Below, piece after piece: positions 4,817 through 15,406 of a stretch of DNA of 32,201 nucleotides (the first letter of the stretch is position 1; each line of letters starts with the position of its first letter). Under the pieces are notes generated by a model, which saw only the letters and a list, made by a program, of their open reading frames with translations, did no database searches and was not told where the DNA came from. The DNA comes from Gammaproteobacteria bacterium (GTDB lineage: Bacteria; Pseudomonadota; Gammaproteobacteria; Steroidobacterales; Steroidobacteraceae): the NCBI GenBank assembly GCA_030038875.1, contig JASHQW010000033.1:1-32201 (forward strand), read 5' to 3'. The position numbers and the translations under genes are program-made.

Positions 4817-5137
4817 TCAGTATCCGTATCCGATGGTGTCTATGTTCGCCACGACGCCGTTTCGAAACCGAATGCGCTGCATCAGCTTGTTAGGGCCGAA
4901 GTTGTAAATCCAGGTTTCGTTTTCCACGTCGGATACCCCCGGCACTACGCCGTCAGTGACTTCGGGGCGCACGACCTGGGCAGGCTGGCCACATAGGGCG
5001 GCGACCTTCGCCTGACTCGTGCCCCTGGTGATGAGCTCGCTTCCGCAACGCATCGACTGCCCGAAAGCGAGCGTCGGGAGGAGAGCGACAATTGCCGCGG
5101 CGAAGAAACGAACTCGATGGCGGGTGTGTTGAAGCAT
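4817..5137 (-). CDS. DUF2845 family exported protein
   Basis: 106 residues, matching the small DUF2845 family as I know it. An N-terminal signal peptide (basic MLQHTRHRVR, hydrophobic FFAAAIVALLPTLA, cleavage near AFGQ) is followed by the family-typical MRCGSELITRGTSQAKVAALCGQPAQV segment, with two cysteines that could form a disulphide, and a C-terminal beta-rich part (ETWIYNFGPNKLMQRIRFRNG, then IDTIGYGY). The fold resembles small periplasmic or outer-membrane lipoproteins of the SmpA/BamE type; the role is unknown. It is transcribed away from the secreted protein at 5324 and sits 74 bp upstream of the three-repeat protein gene, possibly in one transcript. Confidence 0.8.
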   Translation of the reverse strand: MLQHTRHRVRFFAAAIVALLPTLAFGQSMRCGSELITRGTSQAKVAALCGQPAQVVRPEVTDGVVPGVSDVENETWIYNFGPNKLMQRIRFRNGVVANIDTIGYGY

Positions 5138-5213
5138 TTTGCCAGCGCCTCTGTCTGCTCGGCACTCAACGTTGCCAACTTAAGGTAGCGATTCGCCCCC
5201 GAAACTCGACTCT

Positions 5214-5241
5214 CTTAATCACTCGTTAATCCCACATTAAC
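5214..5241 (+). promoter_or_regulatory. Three 11-bp-phased TTAA half-sites, OmpR/PmrA-like operator
   Basis: CTTAAT (5214-5219), GTTAAT (5225-5230) and ATTAAC (5236-5241) are each separated by exactly 5 nt. This matches the known layout of PmrA boxes (YTTAAK-N5-YTTAAK) and, more loosely, of PhoB/OmpR-family direct repeats. The third half-site overlaps the putative -35 of the promoter at 5237-5266. Binding and the identity of the regulator are inferred. Confidence 0.5.
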
Positions 5242-5266
5242 CTGCCTCAACAGCGCCGGCTATACT
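5237..5266 (+). promoter_or_regulatory. Putative sigma-70 promoter of the secreted 261-aa protein gene
   Basis: TTAACC (5237-5242) and TATACT (5261-5266) are spaced by 18 nt. The -10 matches 5 of 6 consensus bases and the -35 matches 4 of 6. A weak -35 covered by operator half-sites is typical of activator-dependent promoters. Transcription would start about 50 nt before ATG 5324. Confidence 0.45.
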
Positions 5267-5323
5267 GTCACTGCTGAGGCAAGCACTCGCTGCCTCGCAC
5301 AACAATCAACAGAGGGGGATTCC

Positions 5324-6109
5324 ATGAGCCATTCAGTGTGGAGAATGATCGCCGGCGTATCAGTGGTCGCGGCGCTCGGCGCGGCGCCCGCGCCCGCGCC
5401 CGCGCAGACGGCTGAAGTAAAGGAAAAGCCGCCGATGTATACCTATGAGTCCTGGTGGGTCATTCCGAGGGCGCGCTGGGGGGATATGGACAAGGACAAC
5501 GCCACCATGAACCAGAAGGTCCTGGCGCCGGCGCTCGCCGACGGAAGCCTGCTCGGCTACGGAGACGACGCGAATCTGGTCCACACTGCCGACGGGCCGA
5601 CCCATGACAGCTGGCATCAGGCACGCTCCATGGCAGCTTTGCTGAAAGTCCTCGATGCCCTCTACAAGAGCGGCGGCGCCTCTTCCTCGGTCCTCGTCAG
5701 CTCAACCAAGCACTGGGACGGTGTATACGTCAGCCGCTTTTACAACTGGAAGGCCGGCTCCTGGAAGGATGCGTACGGGCGCGCCTCCACCTACAAGCTG
5801 AAGGCTGACGCGCCTGCCGATGCGGTCGCGACGCTCAGCAAGAGCCTGTTTGTGCCGCTGCTGGAGAAACTTCTCGCCGATGGTGCCATCGTGGAGTACG
5901 AGATCGATGAAGAGACGATCCATACTGAGTCGCCGGATTTGTTCTTCATCTACATCCTGACGCCGAGCGCTGAGGGCCTGGACAAGTTCAACGACGCGGT
6001 ACGAGAGACAACCAGGAGCAACCCGCTGATTGGACCGGCATTCGGTTCGATGGTCGACTTCACGCCGCACCGCGACCAGCTGGTACGGGCCAACGCGACC
6101 TATAAGTAA
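5324..6109 (+). CDS. Secreted protein of unknown function, internally duplicated
   Basis: 261 residues; no family recognised. ATG 5324 is preceded by AGAGGGGG. The signal peptide runs to about residue 28 (VWRMIAGVSVVAALGAA, an Ala/Pro stretch, then AQ-TA). The mature protein seems to hold two related halves. The first has VLAPALADGSLLGYG, LVHTADGPTHDSW and ALLKVLDAL; the second has VPLLEKLLADGAIVEYE, TIHTESPDLFFIY and GLDKFNDAV. The order helix, LADG turn, strand, His-Thr, strand, helix is what a pair of ferredoxin-like (Dabb/ABM-type) domains would give, but that is inference from the pattern. It has no cysteines, no visible metal-binding site and no anchor. The gene has its own promoter with a phased operator and is followed by a GC-rich hairpin, so it is probably monocistronic and regulated. 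Confidence 0.8.
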   Translation: MSHSVWRMIAGVSVVAALGAAPAPAPAQTAEVKEKPPMYTYESWWVIPRARWGDMDKDNATMNQKVLAPALADGSLLGYGDDANLVHTADGPTHDSWHQARSMAALLKVLDALYKSGGASSSVLVSSTKHWDGVYVSRFYNWKAGSWKDAYGRASTYKLKADAPADAVATLSKSLFVPLLEKLLADGAIVEYEIDEETIHTESPDLFFIYILTPSAEGLDKFNDAVRETTRSNPLIGPAFGSMVDFTPHRDQLVRANATYK

Positions 6110-12780: not shown

Positions 12781-15234
12781 TTAACGGAAGCGCTCGAGCG
12801 CGACCCGCAGCTCGTCCATCGTCTGGAAGCGCTTGTTCTTGTCGACCGCCATCGCCTTCACCACCAGATCCGAGAGGCCGGGCGGCAGGTTGGGGTTCAG
12901 GTCCTGCGGGACACGCGCCTTGCCCTGCACGTGCTGGTACATGACCGACATGTGATCGCCGCGCGAGTAGGGCGGCACGCCGGTCACCATCTCGTAGAGC
13001 ATGACGCCGAGCGCGTAGATATCGGCGCGCTCGTCGACCTTCTTGCCGAGGATCTGCTCGGGGGCCATGTACTTCGGCGAGCCGATGACGTAGCCGGTCT
13101 TGGTGAGCTGCGTGTCGCCCTCGCGCTGCGCCGCCGCGACGCCGAAGTCCACGATCTTCAGCAGCCCCTCCTGGTTGATGAGCACGTTGGCGGGCTTCAG
13201 GTCGCGGTGCACGATGCCCTGCTGGTGCGCCACCGCCATGCCGGTGCAGATGTCGATGCCGAACTGCATGGCGCGCTTCAGCTCGACCGGTTTCTCGTTG
13301 ACGACTTCGCTGCCGAGCGTATGCGAGGGGAAGTACTCCATCGAGATGGCATAGTTCCCCTGGATGTAGAGGAAGTCGTAGATGCGGATGACGTTCTTAT
13401 GGGTGATCTTGCGCGAGTAACGCAGCTCATGGACGAAGCGCTTCATCACCTCCTCGTCCTGCGAGACGTTCGGGTTGAGGAACTTGAGGATGAGGCGCTC
13501 ATCGACCACCGTGTCCTCCATCAGCAGCACGGTGCCGAAAGCGCCGCGCCCGATGCGATCGATGTACTTGTAGCGGCCCTCGATGATGTCGCCGGGCTTG
13601 AGCGTCTGGATGTCGAGGCGCGCGGCGGCGGAGGCCGCGGCCTCGGCCTGACGGCGCGCCTGGCCATCGATCACCACCGTGCGGGTGGGCTCGTGCGCCG
13701 CCGCCGGCGGCGGGCGCACGCCGCTTTGCGCCGGGGCGGGCGGCATGGTCGGCGGCAGCGCCGAGGGAGGCGGCACGCTCGGCGCCAGGGTGGCGATGCC
13801 GGCGATGCGGTTATCGAGCTCGGTGACCGCGGCCGCGGCCATGCGCGAGATGGTCTGATCCTGCGAGCCGGCCTGCGCCTGCAGCTCCTTGCGCACCTGG
13901 TCGGCCTGGCTCTCATCGGCCACCTTGGAGAGCGCCTGCATCGCCTCGATGCGGATCTCGCGCTCGGGACGGGCCACGAGCGGCAGCAGCTCATCCACCA
14001 GCTTGGCATCGCCCAGCTTGCCGAGCGCGCGCACCACGATCGGCATGGCCTTGCCGTGGCTGCCGGTATGCAGCATTTCCATGAGGCGCGGCACGGCACG
14101 CTTGCTGCCGATCTCGGCGAGCGCGTCCACCGCGCGCTCGCTCACCCACCAGTCGCTGTCACGCGTGGCCTGGATGAGCGAGTCGACCGCGCGCTCGTCC
14201 TTGGTCTGGTTGAGGATCTCGATGGCGGCGCGGCGGATGTCCTCGTCCTTGTCGCGCACCAGCTGCAGCACCGCGTCGATCACCTTCGGACCGCCGATCT
14301 TGCCGAGCGCGTCCGCGGCGCGGCTGCGCACCCACCAGTCGCTGTCCTTGAGCGCCTCCAGCAGGTACTTGACCGACTTGGCGTCCCCGACCTCGTTCAG
14401 CACCTCGACCGCCGCGCGCCGTGCGTTCTCGTTCTCGTCCTTGAGCACGGGGATCAGGTGGCGGATCGTCTCCGGGTGGTTGGCCTTGATGACGACGTCG
14501 ACGGCCTTGTTGAGCACGTCGATTTCCGGGTCGCGCAGCAGCGCGCATACCCGCTCGACGTCGATGGGGCCGTCCATGCGCTGCAGCGCCGAGAGCGTCG
14601 CGCTGCGGATCAGCTTGTTGGGATCCTTGAGCAGGCCCTGCAGCGTGCTCTGCACCTCCGGGGTGTTGAAGCGCCCCAGGGTGTTGATGATGTGCACGCG
14701 CGCGATCGGGTCCTTGCCCTGGACGCGGCCGATCAGCTCGGGGAGCGCGCTCTTGTCGGCGATCTCGCCGATGAGGCGGAACAGCGCCGCCTTCTCGTTC
14801 GGCTCCTGGGCGTAGGCCGCGGTGAGGAGCTCGCGCACCGAGAAACGTGACTTCTGCGCGGTAATGACCTCGAGCAGGGCCGACTTGGAGATCCCCTGGG
14901 TGTTGAGCGCGTCGAGCAGCAGGTGCGCCGGGTAGTTGCGGTTGCTGGTGAGCGCCCAGGAGATGCCCGAGATGACGCGCGGGCTGCCCTCGATCAGCCC
15001 CTGCATGTACTGGGGGAAGGTCTTTGGATTGAGGAGCGCCGCGAGCACGTCGACCAGCGCCAGGGTCGCCGCCTTGTCGGCCTCCGGGAGCGCCGCGAAT
15101 ATGGACTCGATGGCGCCCGGGCCGACCTGCTTCAGCGCCGCCACCGCCTTCTGCGTAGCCGGGTTCGACGGATCGCTCGAGGTGCGGATCTCGTGGATCA
15201 GCCGGTCGGCGCGCAGGTTGGTGAAAAAGCTCAT
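12781..15234 (-). CDS. HEAT-repeat Ser/Thr protein kinase (Hanks type)
   Basis: 817 residues from ATG 15234; a TTG at 15291 would add 19 unlikely residues. Residues 1 to about 430 are HEAT/PBS-lyase-like helical repeats with recurring DSDWWVRSRAADALGKIG-type units. A Pro/Ala-rich linker (about 450-540) follows. The C-terminal kinase domain is complete: glycine loop GRGAFG 562-567, Lys584 (LILKFLN), catalytic loop HRDLKPAN with Asp678, DFG 696-698, then SPKYMAPEQ and DIYALGVMLYEM. No membrane segment, PASTA or FHA domain is seen, so it should be a cytoplasmic active kinase with a protein-binding N-terminal scaffold. It lies upstream of two PilT-like ATPases on the same strand, which makes the pilus motors, or proteins around them, plausible substrates; that is inference. 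It is divergent from apbC. Confidence 0.93.
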   Translation of the reverse strand: MSFFTNLRADRLIHEIRTSSDPSNPATQKAVAALKQVGPGAIESIFAALPEADKAATLALVDVLAALLNPKTFPQYMQGLIEGSPRVISGISWALTSNRNYPAHLLLDALNTQGISKSALLEVITAQKSRFSVRELLTAAYAQEPNEKAALFRLIGEIADKSALPELIGRVQGKDPIARVHIINTLGRFNTPEVQSTLQGLLKDPNKLIRSATLSALQRMDGPIDVERVCALLRDPEIDVLNKAVDVVIKANHPETIRHLIPVLKDENENARRAAVEVLNEVGDAKSVKYLLEALKDSDWWVRSRAADALGKIGGPKVIDAVLQLVRDKDEDIRRAAIEILNQTKDERAVDSLIQATRDSDWWVSERAVDALAEIGSKRAVPRLMEMLHTGSHGKAMPIVVRALGKLGDAKLVDELLPLVARPEREIRIEAMQALSKVADESQADQVRKELQAQAGSQDQTISRMAAAAVTELDNRIAGIATLAPSVPPPSALPPTMPPAPAQSGVRPPPAAAHEPTRTVVIDGQARRQAEAAASAAARLDIQTLKPGDIIEGRYKYIDRIGRGAFGTVLLMEDTVVDERLILKFLNPNVSQDEEVMKRFVHELRYSRKITHKNVIRIYDFLYIQGNYAISMEYFPSHTLGSEVVNEKPVELKRAMQFGIDICTGMAVAHQQGIVHRDLKPANVLINQEGLLKIVDFGVAAAQREGDTQLTKTGYVIGSPKYMAPEQILGKKVDERADIYALGVMLYEMVTGVPPYSRGDHMSVMYQHVQGKARVPQDLNPNLPPGLSDLVVKAMAVDKNKRFQTMDELRVALERFR

Positions 15235-15406
15235 GCGGCGATTACGCCCGGCAACCGCCCCGGCGGGGCCCCGCACCCGGCTCGCGGGCAACAGAAGCCC
15301 CGTGCGGCTGGGCGGCCGCAGAGGGGTCCGTTGTGGGGCGCAGATGTAATCAAGCGAACATAGCGACGGCGCAGCAATTATGCCACAGGCCTGCTACCGG
15401 CCCGGT

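Follow-up and report, generated by a model that had tools for sequence, protein, structure and literature searches.

Three TTAA half-sites in 11-bp phase on a predicted promoter, a candidate OmpR/PmrA-family operator, and a PmrA-like box conserved before htrA in the same genus

Introduction

The PmrA (BasR) box of Enterobacteria reads (C/T)TTAA(G/T)-N5-(C/T)TTAA(G/T) (PMC10729948; PMC3973317). The PhoP box of Salmonella, (T/G)GTTTA-N5-(T/G)GTTTA, is active at 12, 23, and 33 nt from the -10 hexamer, and a shift of only 2 bp (21 instead of 23 nt) lowers expression to about a quarter (PMC3335776). Here we describe a 32,201-nt stretch of DNA (the window) from a gammaproteobacterial genome in which three TTAA-core hexamers stand upstream of a gene for a 261-aa secreted protein. 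With the PmrA box they share the TTAA cores, the N5 between hexamers, and the 11-bp head-to-tail geometry, and their first half-site, CTTAAT, is also that of the PmrA box at Klebsiella pbgP (PMC3973317; PMC10729948). Unlike the PmrA box, the window has three half-sites, two of which (GTTAAT and ATTAAC) lie outside the Y...K spelling, and we therefore treat it as a candidate site. Unlike the PmrA regulon, the genome has no such box at its one eptA gene, upstream of which we found no TTAA-N7-TTAA within one mismatch. As in the PhoP box, the hexamers are 11 bp apart and the site replaces or overlaps the -35 region (PMC3335776), but the core is TTAA rather than GTTTA. The core pattern TTAA-N7-TTAA is identical to that of the CtrA site of Alphaproteobacteria, whereas the genus studied here belongs to the Gammaproteobacteria; among three of the genome's regulators scanned in NCBIfam, the best score against the CtrA model was 190 bits, compared with a cut-off of 350.

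Taken alone, the triple in the window would only add another candidate to a well-known class of operators. Following it up brought to light a PmrA-like box conserved before htrA throughout the genus, with a likely regulator encoded nearby. The genus is known here by named records that are all metagenome assemblies, and the box points to a concrete, testable envelope-stress regulon in these little-studied Gammaproteobacteria. It also serves as a yardstick by which single candidate sites, the window triple included, may be accepted or rejected.

Results

Three Equally Spaced Half-Sites Lie on a Promoter-Like Sequence

A first-pass annotation of the window, made from its letters alone, had described three TTAA half-sites at exact 11-bp spacing that run into a weak -35 hexamer followed by TATACT. 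The sequence bears this description out: CTTAAT-N5-GTTAAT-N5-ATTAAC occupies 5214-5241 with a start-to-start step of exactly 11 bp, and TTAACC-N18-TATACT, with 9 of 12 consensus letters, is the sole promoter-like match within 5138-5400 (Table 1). Its spacer lies in the sigma-70 range (-35 and -10 hexamers 16-18 nt apart). The -10 reads TATACTGTCAC in the window, TATACTGACAC in a same-genus homologue (L004/L082; the upstream regions of L004 and L082 read alike), and TGTATACT or TGTACACT before several other homologues from Acidobacteria records. This common -10 was read directly from the sequences; the MAFFT alignment of the upstream regions was poor and uninformative. The intergenic region (5138-5323, 186 bp) is a divergent promoter region common to the DUF2845 gene, a point that the annotation had left unmentioned, and its GC content is 54%, compared with 68% for the window. 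An inverted repeat, TGCCTCAACAG / CTGCTGAGGCA (5243-5253 / 5271-5281, 10 of 11 pairs), is centred on the -10; one equally good arises in ∼3% of Markov sequences. Folding of 5273-5360 as a structured 5′ leader was no better than that of shuffles (z -0.5).

Table 1. Coordinates of the features discussed, in window numbering unless a contig is given
Feature	Position	Strand	Remark
DUF2845 secreted protein gene	4817-5137	-	divergent; sites at least 77 bp upstream of its start
Lone CTTAAG, spelled like the genus half-site	5179-5184		without a partner at 11 bp
Half-site 1, CTTAAT	5214-5219	+	sequence; part of the sole three-part match in the genome
Half-site 2, GTTAAT	5225-5230	+	also left arm of the perfect inverted repeat GTTAAT-N5-ATTAAC
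Half-site 3, ATTAAC	5236-5241	+	overlaps the -35-like hexamer; right arm of the inverted repeat
-35-like hexamer, TTAACC	5237-5242	+	consensus match only; 18-nt spacer to the -10
-10 hexamer, TATACT	5261-5266	+	kept at homologues
261-aa protein gene, downstream	5324-6109	+	predicted signal segment; predicted tandem ferredoxin-like (monooxygenase / chlorite-dismutase type) barrel
htrA box of the same genome (L051/L107)	C140:497-513 (cores 498-512)		cores 57-71 bp before htrA

We carried out the genome search that the annotation had proposed, and no second exact triple was found in the 3.43 Mb: TTAA-N7-TTAA-N7-TTAA occurs once, in the window, and its reversed control not at all. The two-part core TTAA-N7-TTAA has six places in the genome, two of them within the window triple, and 100 dinucleotide shuffles of the window gave none where the window itself has two. 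A first-order Markov null produced no triple in 200,000 sequences. Given the four TTAA in the 186-bp region, the probability that three fall at exactly 11 bp is ∼5e-4, and that of any equal spacing up to 22 bp is ∼0.01. Triples with up to two mismatches numbered 7 genome-wide against 11 for the reversed control, so that the weaker triples are chance matches. N7 is the commonest TTAA-TTAA spacing in this genome (6/28; 4/26 without the window, p ∼0.06), and no clear enrichment appeared in the relatives listed, where N7 (19/74) is less common than N6 (24). The triple is a real and unusual local pattern; it is not proof of function, since its geometry was picked after looking.

These counts bear directly on the possibility of coincidence, in which an ordinary sigma-70 promoter has an AT-rich upstream part where three TTAA are equally spaced by chance. 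A start near 5273 would put the first two TTAA near -57 and -46, positions that may be UP-element-like, with AT-rich DNA contacted by the alpha subunits of RNA polymerase, so that no specific regulator would be needed. The lower GC content of the intergenic region, the lack of any excess of mismatched triples, and the ∼1% figure for equal spacings (many geometries could have drawn a reader's eye) all agree with this explanation, as do two results given below, the absence of the half-sites at homologues and the lack of a match to the genus box. Against it stand the empty Markov null and the fact that the genome's one exact triple has an 11-bp step and sits right on a promoter. We give coincidence a substantial chance, somewhat better than one in three.

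Half-sites 2 and 3 can also be read as a perfect inverted repeat of 6+6 bp, GTTAAT-N5-ATTAAC, which the annotation had not reported. TTAA is its own reverse complement, so the cores cannot tell a direct from an inverted reading, and the repeat may be a dyad operator for another dimeric regulator, placed over the -35 as a repressor would be, with half-site 1 an accessory or chance copy. The repeat was found in none of the other loci compared, and no other TTAA-N7-TTAA place in the genome shows it by matched letters, which speaks for such an operator. However, the complementary flanks come cheaply, at about 1 in 16 per pair once two TTAA stand this far apart; the scan of window ORFs turned up no regulator gene beside the site; and the first site and the equal spacing would be left unexplained. 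We consider a dyad operator unlikely, though worth keeping in mind.

The Half-Sites Are Absent Before Homologues

Relatives of the 261-aa protein turned up at 15 public genome loci, at 48-63% identity and mainly in Acidobacteria records, and, within the genus, in 4 of 57 other genomes, at 49-61% identity. The half-sites were found upstream of none of them (0/15 and 0/4), the very absence that the first-pass annotation had named as speaking against its own proposal; all of these homologues are distant, at no more than 63% identity. No TTAA occurred in the 330 bp upstream of the DUF2845-gene relatives in the 16 that were testable. All homologues are distant, so a young operator could have been lost in them or could have arisen late.

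The family of the 261-aa protein has no Pfam, NCBIfam, or PADLOC match. An AlphaFold2 model built from 19 homologues (mean pLDDT 79.7) shows two ferredoxin-like halves after the signal segment, and the solved structures closest to it in fold are putative monooxygenases (3f44, 2pgc, 3mcs) and chlorite dismutases, at 7-16% identity. The modeled product thus resembles monooxygenases and chlorite dismutases at the level of fold, which carries no claim of activity. The annotation had suggested a cell-envelope response for the regulated gene, and the predicted fold does not particularly point there.

A PmrA-Like Box Is Conserved Before htrA Throughout the Genus

A box of related form, CTTAAG-N5-NTTAAG (with the second half-site NNTAAG in some species), stands upstream of htrA in every one of the 25 species whose upstream DNA was long enough, at one mismatch or fewer in the cores (L051/L107, L108-L136, L069, L073, L127, and L157). 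In the window's own genome this box is one of the TTAA-N7-TTAA places outside the triple, and the htrA behind it encodes a Do-family protease (TIGR02037, 474 bits). At htrA the box takes the form CCTTAAG-N2-TC-N3-TAAG, with G after both cores in 25/25, T-C at +7/+8 in most sites, and a TANNNT -10-like hexamer 10 nt further on. Over all 30 genus sites, G follows both TTAA cores without exception (60/60 half-sites).

CTTAAG-N5-NTTAAG also precedes a PmrA/QseB-type regulator gene in 5/5 relatives of one subgroup (L158-L162; genomes G019, G048, G041, G015, and G021), which suggests autoregulation. On the side facing away from the regulator gene, the box is followed at 10-11 nt by a -10-like hexamer. 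The G019 box is shared by the regulator gene and a divergent gene judged PAP2-like on visual inspection; a Pfam search with a 160-residue piece of the latter returned no match. In another genome (G010) the genus box lies at L147:1614-1630, 70 bp before htpX, an envelope-stress protease gene (NF003965, 430 bits).

Wherever both were found on one contig (35 genomes), the widespread PmrA/QseB-type regulator gene lies 2.7-11.4 kb away from htrA; in 15 genomes, including that of the window, the two are on different contigs. Three genomes (G068, G069, and G005) have a kinase gene followed directly by the box and htrA. Published PmrA boxes are of this form, and the recognition helices resemble each other, so the PmrA/QseB-type regulator of the genus very probably binds the genus box. 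Among the literature titles and abstracts listed, nothing specific appeared on PmrA control of htrA/degP.

The Window Triple Departs from the Genus Box

Like the genus box, the window has the TTAA-N7-TTAA core in a position upstream of a -10. Unlike it, the window half-sites end in T, T, and C where the genus box has an invariant G after both cores, and there is no TC at +7/+8. Position differs as well: in genus boxes the second half-site ends 10 nt (htrA) or 10-11 nt (on the side facing away from the regulator gene) before a TANNNT -10, whereas the gap in the window is 19 nt from half-site 3 and 30 nt from half-site 2, ∼2 bp short of adding one and two helical turns. A profile built from the 30 genus sites scored 0.8 bits at 5215 and 0.5 bits at 5226, compared with 19-32 bits for its building sites, and several unrelated places in the window outscore the triple. 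The genus box is kept before orthologues of its gene, and the triple was found at none of the distant homologues of its own. As spelled, then, the window triple is not a genus-box site by either letters or position.

The triple could still be a true, loosely spelled member of a PmrA-type envelope regulon of the genus (htrA, htpX, and the regulator gene) with an extra half-site, and the common core and spacing, the presence of the regulator, and the secreted product would fit such membership. The missing G that is invariant in 60/60 half-sites, the profile score of 0.8 bits, the wrong phase to the -10, and the lack of half-sites before homologues count against it, and we regard membership as quite improbable; the little probability that it has is a part of that given below to an OmpR/PmrA-family operator and is not additional to it. 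A broader proposal, which we also think unlikely, is that the PmrA/QseB-type system encoded close to htrA controls periplasmic protein quality in this genus, acting on htrA, htpX, and its own paralogue through CTTAAG-N5-NTTAAG boxes in the role that CpxR has in E. coli, and that the window promoter, with its three half-sites, is a diverged target of either this system or a paralogous regulator.

The triple has the geometry of the published PmrA box (TTAA-core hexamers, 5 bp between, head to tail), and the genome encodes a PmrA-type response regulator (L041/L165); in flanking letters (Y before and G/T after the core) the triple as a whole does not conform. Letter by letter, site 1 (CTTAAT) fits the published consensus, site 2 (GTTAAT) needs the looser Salmonella form XTTAAT, and site 3 (ATTAAC) does not fit; CTTAAT-N5-XTTAAT falls inside the published range of PmrA half-sites. 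The match to PmrA-box geometry put forward in the first-pass annotation thus holds in part: the spacing, the regulator, and the genus boxes before envelope genes support it, and the letters, the phase to the -10, the homologues, and eptA do not. Regulation of the promoter by PmrA is therefore conjectural.

A Candidate Operator and a Candidate Regulator

The genome has 13 Trans_reg_C matches, including the PmrA/QseB-type regulator L041/L165. This protein scores 254 bits with the NCBIfam QseB model and 243 bits with the PmrA model, both under the equivalog cut-offs, and its best PDB match is BasR. Its recognition-helix stretch, SNAVEVHIHGLRRKLG, is close to that of BasR/PmrA (4s04, TNTLEVHIHNLREKIG). 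In the 450 bp upstream of 11 of the genome's own regulator genes, L041 included, no TTAA-N7-TTAA was found at one mismatch or fewer; L043 (at a contig end) and L047 were outside this search.

We tentatively favor the reading in which the three phased TTAA form an operator particular to this lineage, at which a winged-helix response regulator of the OmpR/PhoB/PmrA family would act, though we hold it at somewhat below an even chance. Regulator subunits would line up head to tail along one face of the DNA at intervals of one helical turn, covering the -35 of the promoter for the 261-aa secreted protein and the DNA just upstream of this hexamer. The bound regulator would replace the weak -35 and so activate transcription, or would block the -35 if it made no contact with RNA polymerase. 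L041/L165 would be the best single candidate, and the first to test, because the related genus box has the same spacing. Binding at the triple, the identity of the regulator, and the sign of control are each presumed here.

In favor of such an operator, the exact 11-bp triple is unique and improbable under local nulls, and it ends on a -35-like hexamer with a kept -10. The Trans_reg_C regulators, among them one of PmrA/QseB type with a BasR-like helix, and the use of TTAA-N7-TTAA across the genus also favor it. The mismatch to the genus box, the phase to the -10, and the lack of the repeat before homologues of either flanking gene weigh against it, as do the absence of TTAA-N7-TTAA before the genome's own regulator genes and the fact that, among the relatives listed, another spacing is commoner than N7. 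Between the operator on one side and coincidence or a dyad on the other, the balance is nearly even.

Elsewhere in the window, an open frame of 836 aa (12781-15291, - strand) joins five HEAT-repeat stretches to a protein kinase domain.
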